Source: Candidatus Methanoperedentaceae archaeon
Lineage (GTDB): Archaea; Halobacteriota; Methanosarcinia; Methanosarcinales; Methanoperedenaceae
Direction: 5' to 3'
Assembly (NCBI GenBank): GCA_003104905.1
Contig: PQAS01000059.1
Coordinates: 1-34,141 of the forward strand
DNA length: 34,141 nt
Of this stretch, positions 24,164-31,893 are shown piece by piece. The position numbers and the translations under genes were made by a program. Each line of letters opens with the position of its first letter. Position 1 is the stretch's first letter. A model generated the notes under the pieces. It worked only from the letters and a program-made list of their open reading frames with translations. It did no database searches and had not been told where the DNA came from.

Positions 24164-24415
24164 TTAGAATCCATCTTTGTGTTTGATGGCTTCTATAGTG
24201 ACGGTTTGTTCCTTATAATCAATTGTATATATTATCCTAAATTTATTCTCGAAATATAATTCCCAGTATCCATGAAGATTTCCTCTTAAAGGTTTGCCAT
24301 GCAGGTCTGGATTTTCTTTTAATTTTCTAATTTTGGTAGCAAAACGTCTTTGGATTTCTCTATTGTATTTTCGGAGCCATTTTTCTGCAGGTTCATTGAT
24401 TTTGACCAGGAACAT
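24164..24415 (-). CDS. RelE/ParE-family toxin
   Basis: This 83-residue protein has the RelE/ParE fold signature: a helical start (KINEPAEKWLRKYNREIQRRF), KLKENPDLHGKPLRGNLHG, and the strand pairs YWELYFENKFRIIYTIDYKE and VTIEAIKHKDGF. Such toxins cleave ribosome-bound mRNA or poison gyrase; the sequence does not settle which. No antitoxin gene is adjacent upstream. TATA-like TATATATATAA lies on this strand near 24481-24491 and an AGGTG ribosome binding site precedes the ATG. A broken copy of its 3' end is found next to the antitoxin gene at 23231-23290. Confidence 0.8.
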   Translation of the reverse strand: MFLVKINEPAEKWLRKYNREIQRRFATKIRKLKENPDLHGKPLRGNLHGYWELYFENKFRIIYTIDYKEQTVTIEAIKHKDGF

Positions 24416-25125: not shown

Positions 25126-25539
25126 ATGAAAACCGTTTATCTTGCTGCACCGCTTTTTAGAGAAGCCGAGTGTGATTTTAACCGTAAGCTAAGGAATGAG
25201 TTAATAAGCGCTGGCTTTGATGTATTCTTGCCTCAGGAAGATTCGAACAATATAAAAGACAATAAAGATCGGCAGAAAATAATTTTCAATAAGAACCTTA
25301 AGGGGATCGAGAATTCGGATATACTCGTTGCTGTTTTAGATGGAGCGGATGTTGATTCGGGAACCGCGTGGGAAATCGGTTTCGCATTCTCAAAAGGTAA
25401 ACCCGTTCTTGGTCTTCGGACAGATTTTCGGACCCTCGGTATTGAGGGCACGGTGAATCTCATGATAGAGCGGTCTTTGGTTCTTTGCTCGAGCGTTTCG
25501 GAGTTATTAAATCATTTGAAATCAATGCAGAGTACATGA
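25126..25539 (+). CDS. Nucleoside 2-deoxyribosyltransferase family protein
   Basis: This 137-residue protein of the PF05014 family, which cleaves or exchanges N-glycosidic bonds of (deoxy)nucleosides or nucleotides, begins YLAAPLFREAECDFN. It contains the catalytic Glu/Asp region VLDGADVDSGTAWEIGFAFS and ends in a C-terminal helix. The GTAWEIG segment carries the nucleophilic Glu. The specific substrate is unknown; relatives include DNPH1-like N-glycosidases. An AGGTGATG ribosome binding site precedes the ATG. The stop overlaps the start of the iron-sulfur flavoprotein gene (ATGA), so they are co-transcribed. Confidence 0.85.
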   Translation: MKTVYLAAPLFREAECDFNRKLRNELISAGFDVFLPQEDSNNIKDNKDRQKIIFNKNLKGIENSDILVAVLDGADVDSGTAWEIGFAFSKGKPVLGLRTDFRTLGIEGTVNLMIERSLVLCSSVSELLNHLKSMQST

Positions 25540-26493: not shown

Positions 26494-26531
26494 GAGAAAT
26501 TACTTAAACATAAATGCAGACTAAGCTGTCA

Positions 26532-27542
26532 ATGAAACTTTCCGAATTTGACTATCATCTTCCAAAAGAACTTATCGCCCAATCTCCTGTTGAACCAAGG
26601 GATGCATCAAAATTGATGGTACTCGGACAAAAAATCGAGCATGGTTCTTTTTCAAATATCCTAGATCATTTTGAAAAAGGAGATACTCTTGTTCTTAACG
26701 ATTCAAGAGTAATACCTGCGAAGCTCACGGGAAAAAAAAGCACGGGAGGTCATGTGGAAGCCCTGGTTGTTTCAAAAAATGATGCGGGGCATGTTTGCCT
26801 GATACGGGGGAAGAATATCCACGAAGGTTCAATACTTAATTTTGGCGATCTGGAAGCAACAGTACTTCAGCTTTTAGAAAGGCCAAATACTAACAGGTAT
26901 CTTGTAAAATTCAATTGCAATGGCAACCTTCCCGACATCCTTGAAAAAATAGGAGAAGCGCCGCTTCCCCCTTATATCAAATCCAGGCTTGATAATAAGA
27001 ACCGTTACCAGACGGTCTATTCCAGAGAAAAAGGTTCAATAGCAGCACCCACTGCGGGCCTTCATTTCACGAAGGAGTTATTGGAGAGGATCAAAGCAAA
27101 AGGTGTCAATATCGCTTATGTTACGCTTCATGTAAGCCTGGGAACCTTTACACCTGTTAAAGCACCGGACATTGAAACACATGTCATGGAAGCCGAATAT
27201 ATTTCCGTACGAAAAGAAAATGCAGAGATTATCAATACAACACCGGGAAAGGTCATAGCGGCAGGAACAACAACTGCCAAGGCGCTTGAGAGTTCATGCA
27301 TCGAAGGGAAAATTGTGGAAAATGAAGGATTCAGCCAGCTTTTCATTTACCCCCCATACCGATTCAAATCAAGGATAGACGCCATGATAACAAATTTCCA
27401 TCTTCCCAAATCCACACTTTTGATGCTTGTGAGCGCTTTTGCAGGCAGGGAACGGCTGATGGAGGCTTATAATGAAGCCATATCACAATCATACAGGTTT
27501 TACAGTTTTGGGGATGCGATGCTTGTTTTCAGGGGGAAATAA
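26532..27542 (+). CDS. queA: S-adenosylmethionine:tRNA ribosyltransferase-isomerase QueA
   Basis: This protein of about 336 residues transfers and rearranges the ribosyl part of SAM onto preQ1 at tRNA position 34 to make epoxyqueuosine. The start MKLSEFDYHLPKELIAQSP, VLNDSRVIPAKL, SIAAPTAGLHFT, LHVSLGTFTPVKAPDIETH, AGTTTAKALES and TNFHLPKSTLLMLVSAF are all classic QueA blocks. The ATG at 26532 matches the usual family start; an ATG at 26514 would add six residues. Queuosine is a bacterial and eukaryotic modification and archaea normally make archaeosine, so a full-length queA here points to transfer from bacteria. Six bases separate it from tgt. Confidence 0.96.
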   Translation: MKLSEFDYHLPKELIAQSPVEPRDASKLMVLGQKIEHGSFSNILDHFEKGDTLVLNDSRVIPAKLTGKKSTGGHVEALVVSKNDAGHVCLIRGKNIHEGSILNFGDLEATVLQLLERPNTNRYLVKFNCNGNLPDILEKIGEAPLPPYIKSRLDNKNRYQTVYSREKGSIAAPTAGLHFTKELLERIKAKGVNIAYVTLHVSLGTFTPVKAPDIETHVMEAEYISVRKENAEIINTTPGKVIAAGTTTAKALESSCIEGKIVENEGFSQLFIYPPYRFKSRIDAMITNFHLPKSTLLMLVSAFAGRERLMEAYNEAISQSYRFYSFGDAMLVFRGK

Positions 27543-29116
<1,574 letters not shown>

Positions 29117-29119
29117 TAT

Positions 29120-29692
29120 ATGATTTCACACATATGCGGCAAAATCACCCATAGCGGTGAAGGATCTGTTGTAATCGATATTGGCGGCATAGGATATCAA
29201 GTATTTGTGACAAAACCAACATTGAATGAGCTCGCCGATAAAAAAGAAAAAGTGAAGCTTCATACTTATCTTCATGTCAGGGAAGATGCGCTCATTCTCT
29301 ACGGCTTTTTAAGCCAGAGCGAACTTGAGATGTTCAAACTCCTGATAAGTGTTACAAGGGTCGGCCCCCAGATAGCCATGAACATACTTTCCCAGATAAA
29401 GATCGAAGAACTTGCCGCTGCAATTATCCATGAGGATGAAAAAGTCCTGACACGCATCTCAGGGGTGGGGGCAAAGAATGCCAAGCGGCTGATACTGGAA
29501 TTGAAAGAAAAAATGACAAAGAAGATGGAAGGATTCGTCCTTCCTGCCGCAAGCAGTATCAATTATGATGCGGTGAGCGCGCTTGTTTCGCTTGGGTTCC
29601 CGAGGCAGGCTGCGCAAAGGGCGGTAGAGTCAGTTTCGGGGGGCAACGTGGAAGCCATAATCAAGGCAGCGCTTTTGAAATTGAAGGAATAA
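29120..29692 (+). CDS. ruvA: Holliday junction branch migration protein RuvA
   Basis: This 190-residue protein forms the tetramer that holds the junction. Domain I (residues 1-65) has VVIDIGGIGYQVFV and LHVREDALILYGF. Domain II has two helix-hairpin-helix motifs (VTRVGPQIAMNIL and ISGVGAKNAKRLILELKEK). Domain III, which binds RuvB, is the UBA-like end (AVSALVSLGFPRQAAQRAV). All parts expected for a functional bacterial RuvA are present. The gene immediately follows ruvC, and two unrelated genes separate it from ruvB. Confidence 0.96.
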   Translation: MISHICGKITHSGEGSVVIDIGGIGYQVFVTKPTLNELADKKEKVKLHTYLHVREDALILYGFLSQSELEMFKLLISVTRVGPQIAMNILSQIKIEELAAAIIHEDEKVLTRISGVGAKNAKRLILELKEKMTKKMEGFVLPAASSINYDAVSALVSLGFPRQAAQRAVESVSGGNVEAIIKAALLKLKE

Positions 29693-29784
29693 TGAAAATT
29701 ACATGATGATGAGTAGAGCAAAGTATTAATAACAATAATACTCAATGATAGATTGTTATAATTATATTGTTTATAGGAGTAACT

Positions 29785-29955
29785 ATGGTCACGGATTGCA
29801 GGTCATGCGGAATGCATCTAGGCGAAGAGCATCCACAATTGAATGATATGTGTATTGATTGTTTTGCCGATAGTTGGGGAGAGTTAGTCGAAAAGTCGCC
29901 AATGGTAAGTCCACAGACCCTTTATAAGATTGAGAGTAAAAAAGAGACTTTTTAA
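29785..29955 (+). CDS. Small zinc-ribbon protein (56 aa)
   Basis: The sequence contains CRSCGMHLGEEHPQLNDMC and then CF after ID, two CxxC-type knuckles that can bind one zinc atom, with an acidic/hydrophobic C-terminal part (WGELVEKSPMVS). GGAG at 29776-29779 precedes the ATG at 29785; an upstream in-frame TTG (29767) is less likely. It has 12 bases to the next gene, so the two probably form an operon. Its role is unknown; it could be a partner of the fusion protein that follows. Confidence 0.7.
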   Translation: MVTDCRSCGMHLGEEHPQLNDMCIDCFADSWGELVEKSPMVSPQTLYKIESKKETF

Positions 29956-29967
29956 GAGAAGATTTTT

Positions 29968-30894
29968 TTGAGGGAGATTTTTTTTGATGAAAACAGTATA
30001 GACAATGGTCTGCGCCAGGCATACAAAAAAATTGTCAAGGAAGGATTTGATTCTTACATTGTCTTAGCTGTTGGCAGTGGGGGAGAACAGATAGTTAGAA
30101 GACTAAATAAATATTGGAACTGTAAAGATATTGTTTTTTGTGTGGTAAAAAATGGTGATATCCAGATTTCAGATGGCTCAAAGATCAAAGATAACAAAAT
30201 ATTTGTCTGTGATGACACTACGATAACAGGAAGAACTTTTATCAATATCTTTAACAAATTATCAGAGCTTGGAGCAGACGATATAAAATTATTATCACTG
30301 TTAATGCGCAGGAATTCATCTGTGGTCCCAAATATATTTATTTTTGAAATTGAAGCAGATACAAAAGTATATTTTCCCTGGAGCGATTATCCCATCCGAA
30401 TATATTCAAAGGGAATTGTCCGAAAAATATGCTATGAAGATTGCAGAAAGGAGTTCAGATGTGGAGATCCAAATATTGATAAAAACTCTCTTTCAGATTT
30501 TTTCAAGAACCAGCAACATTCATCAGCCAAGATTTATCTGGTTGAAGATATGGGGGAGATATGTTCAATCGTTCAATTTTATGAAAAGCATCTCGATATT
30601 TATAAAGGGTTATTTCTTGACATAATTGCAACAGCAGAAGGGAAAATCGGGAACAAATATGCCAGCACATTGCTAAAATTGATCAGCTATTACATGTTCT
30701 ATCATGAATTTAGCTTCATATATGGCTACGCTTTCGATAATGAAGAGCTTATTGGCATGTATAAAAAAAGAGGATTTGAAGTAATTGGTTCGATCCAGGA
30801 CCCCCATTATGGAACCCTACATAAAATTGTCATAATCAACGGAACAAAAGATATGAAAGAACATGTGATTTCAACTATTAGACCCCATATTTAA
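29968..30894 (+). CDS. Phosphoribosyltransferase-like and GNAT-like fusion protein
   Basis: This 308-residue protein has two recognisable parts. Residues 1-150 resemble type I phosphoribosyltransferases of the xanthine/hypoxanthine kind: VLAVGSGGEQIVRRL, the PRPP motif VCDDTTITGRTF (DDxxxxGxT), and FPW. Residues 180-308 resemble a GNAT acetyltransferase: IIATAEGKIGNKYASTLL (acetyl-CoA loop) and ELIGMYKKRGFEVIGS (the YxxxGF element). A short Cys-containing linker (CYEDCRKEFRCGD) lies between. The start must be TTG 29968; the ATG nearby is out of frame. I do not know a named family with this order. It lies between ruvA and ruvB, 12 bases after a zinc-ribbon gene and 12 bases before ruvB. A base-salvage or nucleotide-modifying role is speculative. 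Confidence 0.75.
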   Translation: MREIFFDENSIDNGLRQAYKKIVKEGFDSYIVLAVGSGGEQIVRRLNKYWNCKDIVFCVVKNGDIQISDGSKIKDNKIFVCDDTTITGRTFINIFNKLSELGADDIKLLSLLMRRNSSVVPNIFIFEIEADTKVYFPWSDYPIRIYSKGIVRKICYEDCRKEFRCGDPNIDKNSLSDFFKNQQHSSAKIYLVEDMGEICSIVQFYEKHLDIYKGLFLDIIATAEGKIGNKYASTLLKLISYYMFYHEFSFIYGYAFDNEELIGMYKKRGFEVIGSIQDPHYGTLHKIVIINGTKDMKEHVISTIRPHI

Positions 30895-30906
30895 AGAGAC
30901 AACAAC

Positions 30907-31893
30907 ATGGAAGAGCGAATAATCACCCCGATCTCGCAAAATGAGGAAAAAGAAGAACTCACCATCCGCCCCGGCCGGCTTGAAGATTTCATAGGACAGC
31001 ATGCCCTCAAGGAATCCCTGAAGATCTTCATAGAGGCTGCGAAGAAACGAAATGAACCACTTGATCACATCCTGTTTTCAGGGCCTCCCGGCCTGGGTAA
31101 AACCACCCTTGCCCATATAATTGCCCGCGAACTGGGCTCCAATATCAAGAGCACATCCGGGCCGGTTCTTGAAAAACCTGGAGACCTTGCAGCCATCCTC
31201 ACGGCATTAAAGAAAGGGGACGTGCTGTTCATTGATGAGATACACCGCCTGAATTCTGTTATTGAAGAAATATTATATCCTGCGATGGAGGACTACGAGA
31301 TCGATGTCATGATAGGTGAGGGGCCAGGTGCGCGCTCCATAAAATTGACCCTCGAACGATTTACTCTCATTGGCGCCACGACCAGGGTGGGACTCCTTGG
31401 TTCGCCATTTCGTGACAGGTTCGGTCTTATTTCCAGGCTCAAGCTTTATTCTGTGGATGAGCTTGTTGAGGTTGTGTCCCGAAGCGCCTCCATATTGAAA
31501 ATCCCAATATCAAGGGAAGGATCCATTGAAATCGCAAAAAGAAGCCGCGGAACTCCCCGTATTGCTAACAGGCTGCTTCGGCGCGTATGGGATTTTGCGC
31601 TTGTGAGGGCACAGGGTAATATCACGCAGGAAGTTGCCGATGCCGCCCTGACCATGCTTGGGATCGACAGGCTTGGGCTTGATGAGCTTGACAGGAAGAT
31701 CCTTGGAATAATATCCGAGGATTTCGGCGGAGGGCCTGTCGGGGCTAAAACGATTGCAATATCAGCAGGTGAAGAAGTCAGGACGATTGAAGAAGTATAT
31801 GAGCCCTATCTTATACAGATAGGATTTATCAAACGTACGCCGCAGGGAAGAGAAACTACTGCTGCTGCTAAAGAACATCTGGACAAAAAATAG
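30907..31893 (+). CDS. ruvB: Holliday junction branch migration ATPase RuvB
   Basis: This 328-residue AAA+ motor pumps DNA through the RuvA-held junction. Visible motifs are the RuvB signature [12 protein letters not shown] near residue 22, Walker [13 protein letters not shown], Walker [10 protein letters not shown], sensor 1 and arginine-finger region [19 protein letters not shown], and sensor 2 [17 protein letters not shown]. The C-terminal winged helix has [18 protein letters not shown]. All catalytic elements are intact and the protein looks fully functional. Together with ruvC and ruvA it completes the bacterial resolvasome. Confidence 0.97.

Follow-up and report, generated by a model that had tools for sequence, protein, structure and literature searches.

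A two-gene archaeal cassette, encoding a small Cys4 zinc-ribbon protein (ZnR) and a fusion of a phosphoribosyltransferase (PRTase) with a GNAT acetyltransferase, moves as a unit between unrelated sites and, on balance, we think it is a toxin–antitoxin-like or abortive-infection module that has yet to be described. It was found in a stretch of 34,141 nucleotides (the window), contig C59 of a 2.9-Mb genome, where it lies between ruvA and ruvB; the gene has its closest named relatives in Candidatus Methanoperedens. To our knowledge, few characterised toxin–antitoxin or abortive-infection modules are known in anaerobic methane-oxidising archaea, and searches of the literature returned nothing specific on a PRTase–GNAT family or on toxin–antitoxin work in Methanoperedens. 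The original prediction regarded the pair as an undescribed two-gene system, and this view holds: no family in Pfam or NCBIfam scores above its cut-off for the window pair, and the matches in PADLOC and PHROGs are weak only, those in PADLOC being to ShosT (E = 0.009) and, for one member, to PsyrT (0.02).

The locus between ruvA and ruvB

A CxxC protein and a larger fusion had been predicted between the two ruv genes and both are present there (Table 1). ZnR carries its cysteines as two CxxC pairs (C5, C8 and C23, C26) and has no match to any Pfam family. The fusion is separated from ZnR and from ruvB by 12 bases each, as had been claimed, but 92 bases separate ruvA from ZnR. Since this longer gap contains a promoter-like block, the pair probably has a transcript of its own.

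Table 1 Positions of the cassette, its parts and the adjoining ruv genes in the window
Feature	Position	Strand	Basis or remark
ruvA	29120–29692		Flanks ZnR on its upstream side
DNA without counterpart in the closest relative, G012	29693–30906	+	Junction comparison
Promoter-like conserved block upstream of ZnR, AT-rich	29717–29784	+	Comparison among G000, G001, G002, G007 and G009
Inverted repeat AGTATTA-N7-TAATACT inside the upstream block	29722–29742	+	Sequence
GGAG ribosome-binding site before ZnR	29776–29779	+	Sequence
ZnR, Cys4 zinc-ribbon protein, 56 aa	29785–29955	+	ORF and CxxC-CxxC motif
PRTase–GNAT fusion, 308 aa, TTG start, uninterrupted by stops	29968–30894	+	Proposed effector
PRTase half, residues 1–145, Gpt-type fold	29968–30402	+	Profile match, Foldseek, alignment
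GNAT half, residues 146–308	30403–30891	+	GNAT structures matched by Foldseek and by profile; alignment
ruvB	30907–31893		Directly after the PRTase–GNAT gene

The upstream block, ~65 bp long, is kept in the window (G000), G001, G002, G007 and G009 despite their differing flanks, and it stops at the edge of the cassette. The inverted repeat within it is exact in the window, G001 and G009 and has diverged in G002 and G007. A repeat of equal size arises in ~11% of shuffled sequences and is commonplace in AT-rich shuffles; that it might be a palindromic operator is a suggestion only. The start signals in the window's form of the cassette are a strong ribosome-binding site at ZnR and a TTG or GTG start codon at the fusion. 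We propose that ZnR is a putative antitoxin and autoregulator.

The genes of this part of the window run queA–tgt–ruvC–ruvA–ruvB, with the cassette in the ruvA–ruvB gap. The three ruv genes score above their NCBIfam cut-offs, and a complete set of bacterial-type RuvA, RuvB and RuvC is encoded in an archaeon (28646–31893). Immediately upstream of ruvC are a bacterial-type QueA and a queuosine-type Tgt (26514–28649), again in an archaeal genome. A RuvC homologue was detected in 55 of the 186 genomes examined in the order, all belonging to families f1, f3 and f4. A ParE-type toxin gene (24164–24415) and a nucleoside 2-deoxyribosyltransferase (25126–25539) are located a few kilobases upstream of the ruv cluster.

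A diverged PRTase joined to a GNAT domain

Searched as a single sequence, the fusion matches Pfam below threshold in both halves (Pribosyltran, 7e-4; Acetyltransf_9, 0.009). A profile built from 11 homologues and compared with known structures matches the Pyrococcus purine PRTase 1vdm over residues 2–146 with E = 1.8e-16, and the next matches include Sulfolobus GpT-1 and GpT-2. The AlphaFold2 model of the N-terminal half (pLDDT 69, compared with 76 for the full protein; residues ~114–145 are modelled poorly) found HGPRT (E ~ 2.5e-7) and 1vdm (E ~ 3.5e-6) using Foldseek. With the full-length model, Foldseek returned several GNATs at E ~ 2e-8 and a probability of 1.00, and the 11-sequence profile recovers GNAT structures such as GCN5 at ~1e-4. 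Residues 1–145 are a diverged archaeal Gpt-type PRTase and residues 146–308 are a GNAT domain; both of the folds that had been predicted, the first from its PRPP motif, are recovered.

The PRTase half has the same fold, PRPP loop and VPN/FPW hood motifs as the archaeal Gpt-type PRTases (1vdm; GpT-1 and GpT-2 of Sulfolobus), but differs from them in the loss of the PPi-loop arginine, in a short flexible loop and in the attached GNAT. The PRPP loop of the window's fusion, CDDTTITGRT, is at residues 81–90 and the hood reads VYFPWSDYP; CDDTTITG and the FPW hood are retained in the window's form of the cassette. A second form, described below, has CDSIINTG or CYTRVDTG as its PRPP loop, with the loss of acidic residues. 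Alignment with the resident Gpt-like PRTases located the main changes: the arginine of the ARGG PPi loop is gone, GxGG or GESG being found instead, and the flexible loop is shorter by ~8 residues. The intact ARGG loop and full flexible loop that are features of a catalytic Gpt salvage enzyme are therefore absent, and because of this we infer that the PRTase half binds a ligand without efficient catalysis. Base modification by PRPP chemistry, which had been suggested for the fusion, is unlikely in its simple form given the same two changes and the lost acidic residues of the second form. The half is also not the orthologue of the resident Gpt, separate Gpt-like copies of which occur in the same genomes. 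One fusion (G007:C245, L007 2270–3028) carries an in-frame deletion of ~55 residues, by which the PRPP loop is lost and the GNAT domain is left intact.

The GNAT half begins with an F-x-C-G-x(3)-I-D-K motif, and Tyr265, the tyrosine preceding GF in an MY..GF motif, is invariant across the aligned members. The acetyl-CoA loop (GNAT consensus Q/R-x-x-G-x-G/A) retains the second Gly/Ala, and most members have Lys in place of the first Gly; the loop reads K-Y-A in most fusions of the window's form, G-Y-G in G019 and G-Y-A in G042. The best structural relatives are SpeG, Naa50 and RimI-type enzymes. An F-x-C-G...(I/L)D motif is common to this half and to two weakly matching structures, 7byy (E 0.014), whose entry is titled ‘bacterial toxin’, and 6g96 (E 0.28), which we take to be TacT3. 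Membership of the clade of DUF1778-paired GNAT toxins is unproven. Scored against a profile made from seven of these toxins and the toxin-like archaeal GNAT of G011, the family reaches 8.5–12.6 bits compared with 17–19 bits for two unrelated GNATs, and an hhalign probability of 90% indicates general relatedness only.

Distribution, movement and loss

The same gene pair occurs in other genomes of the order, mostly with unrelated neighbours. The window's form, ZnR and PRTase–GNAT, is present at nine loci (G000, G001, G002, G007, G009, G015, G048, G059 and G185), and the second form, which consists of an HTH gene, ZnR, PRTase–GNAT and an OPRT-like PRTase, at three (G019, G056 and G183). The genes are real, since their homologues in other genomes show dN/dS of 0.05–0.17 in the window's form and ~0.27 in the second; the low values of the window's form are also compatible with an ordinary conserved enzyme. 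A search for ZnR in 393 genomes sampled across the phylum gave matches in this archaeal order alone, and one pattern-based scan that covered bacterial genomes returned only archaea. No relative turned up among plasmids, phages or IMG/VR when the fusion of the window, the GNAT half alone or the profile was the query, nor in a viral scan with a second-form protein; plasmid matches to the second-form fusion proved to be generic GNATs with unrelated neighbours. The cassette is so far known from Methanoperedens and from other, related families within its order.

The pair moves as a mobile cassette. ZnR is immediately upstream of PRTase–GNAT in all 12 fusion loci (no fusion is without it), in constant order and with a short gap, and the flanks are unrelated. 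The closest relative, G012, has ruvA and ruvB 95% and 96% identical to those of the window, and there the two genes are adjacent, reading ...GAAGGAATAATATGGAAG... across the junction, with the cassette absent. Between the window and G001 the fusion is more alike than the ruv genes (DNA identity 85.1% compared with 70.6% for ruvB and 68.9% for ruvA). Housekeeping genes adjoin most of the Methanoperedens copies. The neighbours, as named from sequence, are Hsp20-like and TldD-like genes in G001, ABC-transporter genes in G002, leuS and deoxyhypusine synthase in G048 and small toxin–antitoxin-like genes in G185; those of G056, of the second form, are type I restriction–modification (RM), DUF1016 and AbiEii-like genes. 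It is the absence from G012, the unrelated neighbours and the greater likeness of the fusion that establish the mobility.

Thus, the gap between ruvA and ruvB is a site of insertion and the location is incidental to function: the pair occurs at unrelated loci, the ruv genes of G012 are intact without it and the conserved upstream block goes no further than the cassette. Ruv clusters hold only two of the nine window's-form loci, the window and G009, and none of the three second-form loci. The cassette of G009 is likewise in the ruvA–ruvB gap and a fusion scar occupies the same gap in G004, adjoining two small genes, one of them a DUF2283 member, which makes this gap a repeated site of insertion or loss. 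The shared placement in the window and G009 may reflect either independent insertion or shared descent with losses. The small pair (L083 841–1500 in G004; L129 4394–4894 in G003) is found at two sites of destroyed PRTase–GNAT cassettes, and consists of a 108-residue protein without Pfam match with, in G004, the DUF2283 partner. A GNAT resembling the DUF1778-paired toxins occupies the ruvC–ruvA gap of G011 (L136 166–687), so insertions recur in the ruv cluster of the genus.

Loss of the cassette is polar. A search for ZnR alone located nine loci without an intact PRTase–GNAT, and the ZnR frame is intact in six of these: G043, G044 (with an altered C-terminus), G051, G054, G058 and G184. Scars of the fusion are readable in three. 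Its start and end are left in G051 with the middle deleted, ~27 codons are left in G058, and in G184 it ends after about nine codons. In the other three loci there is a stop in ZnR (G045), fragments of both genes (G003) or a ZnR split by an insertion (G042). The dN/dS of solo ZnR is 0.16 (G051/G054), and these genes could reflect an independent function of ZnR. A free toxin would not be expected to last without its antitoxin, and orphan antitoxins are common (PMC7192599). It is mainly because ZnR outlasts the fusion and never the reverse, in few loss events and 12 fusion loci, that ZnR appears to be protective and PRTase–GNAT harmful.

The gene that splits ZnR in G042 encodes a protein of 774 residues (L060 3781–6105), in which an N-terminal region without assignment is followed by an nSTAND3 ATPase (E = 4.5e-21) and a C-terminal GNAT 56% identical to that of the window. 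The nSTAND3 fold is used in antiviral ATPases. The gene is at a leuS–deoxyhypusine-synthase locus, where G043, G044, G048, G051 and G054 carry ZnR with or without PRTase–GNAT, and we read it as an apparent insertion into ZnR. A local recombination with PRTase–GNAT was considered and rejected, as the ZnR C-terminus comes only after the GNAT and the identity is just 54–56%. A single putative effector domain joined to two different sensors is in keeping with a conflict system.

Proposed mechanism, alternatives and known systems

In the mechanism that we propose, ZnR would be made in excess, having a strong ribosome-binding site compared with the TTG or GTG start of the fusion, and would keep PRTase–GNAT inactive; it would probably also be an autoregulator. 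The PRTase domain, no ordinary salvage enzyme, would bind PRPP or a purine nucleotide as a sensor, and a change in these, for example on virus infection, or the loss of ZnR would release the GNAT. With acyl-CoA as donor, the freed GNAT would acylate an amino group on some component of the cell, the most plausible being one that takes part in translation. The target is perhaps aminoacyl-tRNA by analogy with the GNAT toxins, which acetylate it (PMC9177977). There are precedents for the other half: the PRTase domain of RqlH is toxic unless RqlI is present (PMC4670107), and regulators or ligand sensors with the PRTase fold, PurR and PyrR, are cited in PMC9005727. We count in favour of the toxin–antitoxin-like reading the RM, DUF1016 and AbiEii-like neighbours in G056 and the toxin–antitoxin-like genes in G185. 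Counting against it are the low scores of the GNAT half with the DUF1778-toxin profile, the K-Y-A loop of most window's-form fusions, the low dN/dS, the housekeeping neighbours of most Methanoperedens copies, a possible separate function of solo ZnR and the small number of fusion loci.

More tentatively, the cassette may stand for a new class of archaeal module, for immunity or addiction, in which a salvage PRTase has been repurposed to sense PRPP or purines and directly gates a fused acetyltransferase toxin, with the zinc ribbon as antitoxin, an effector that can be plugged again onto an nSTAND ATPase, and the OPRT-like PRTase of the second form as an additional sensor. If true, this would be an architecture not described before, with an acetyltransferase under the control of a PRTase that senses nucleotides and a zinc ribbon as guard, and would raise the question of whether a salvage-enzyme fold can trigger an immune effector. 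The nSTAND3 swap in G042 would be a natural test of the GNAT as effector, as two sensors would fire one domain.

The fusion might instead be a non-toxic, nucleotide-gated regulatory acetyltransferase, whose PRTase senses PRPP or purine nucleotides and whose GNAT acetylates a metabolic or ribosomal protein, with ZnR as regulator or substrate adaptor. Purifying selection on both domains, the existence of PurR and PyrR and the likeness of the GNAT half to SpeG, Naa50 and RimI-type enzymes are in keeping with this, and a use of its own for ZnR would explain its solo retention and the selection on it. We think it rather unlikely, however, as the patchy distribution, cassette transfer and deletion scars are unusual for housekeeping regulation, as are the RM, Abi and toxin–antitoxin neighbours and the link to an nSTAND3 ATPase. 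An antiviral system in which PRTase–GNAT senses virus-induced nucleotide changes, ZnR is an accessory and not an antitoxin, and the second form splits sensing with the OPRT-like protein is less likely again. The HTH and OPRT-like genes of that form, the GNAT swapped onto nSTAND3 and the PADLOC match to ShosT, weak as it is and lying over the PRPP loop, would agree with it, but the retention of ZnR without the fusion is better explained by a protective ZnR.

Two further explanations are very improbable. The PRPP motif and the place in the queA–tgt–ruvC–ruvA–ruvB run had led to the suggestion of a nucleotide- or base-modifying enzyme linked to recombination or tRNA base exchange, acting with RuvAB or the queuosine genes. 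This is largely refuted by synteny, since the cassette is outside ruv clusters at seven of nine window's-form loci and at each of the three second-form loci, and ruvA and ruvB are intact and adjacent in G012; the catalytic loops are also eroded. The other is a split ComFC-like DNA-handling protein, ComFC having a similar composition of zinc finger and PRTase (PMC9005727). We give it no more credence, as the PRTase half is Gpt-like in its match to 1vdm, none of the best 60 profile matches is named as a ComFC structure, ZnR has no Pfam match and ComFC has no GNAT.

Returning to the toxin–antitoxin-like reading, one likeness in layout is to the GNAT–DUF1778 type II systems (TacAT, AtaTR and KacAT), which likewise have a small upstream partner and a GNAT effector in a mobile cassette, and whose toxins carry a comparable F-x-C-G-x(n)-(I/L)D motif where the GNAT domain begins. 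The effector here differs in its N-terminal PRTase and the partner in being a Cys4 zinc ribbon rather than a ribbon-helix-helix DUF1778 protein, none of which is in the gene lists beside the cassette copies. PsyrTA/RqlHI and ShosTA have a PRTase-domain effector with a neutralising partner (PMC4670107), as the cassette would have if ZnR neutralises the fusion. Unlike them, it has no helicase and no DprA-like partner (the gene lists of the neighbourhoods hold no DprA-like gene beside the copies), and it has a GNAT domain instead. ComFC, which binds PRPP, nucleotides and single-stranded DNA, combines a Cys4 zinc finger with a PRTase in one protein (PMC9005727), whereas in the cassette the zinc ribbon and PRTase are on separate proteins, the PRTase is of another subfamily and a GNAT is present. 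The nSTAND3 conflict proteins are linked to the cassette through G042, which has the same GNAT on an nSTAND3 ATPase; the window's form is without a STAND NTPase.
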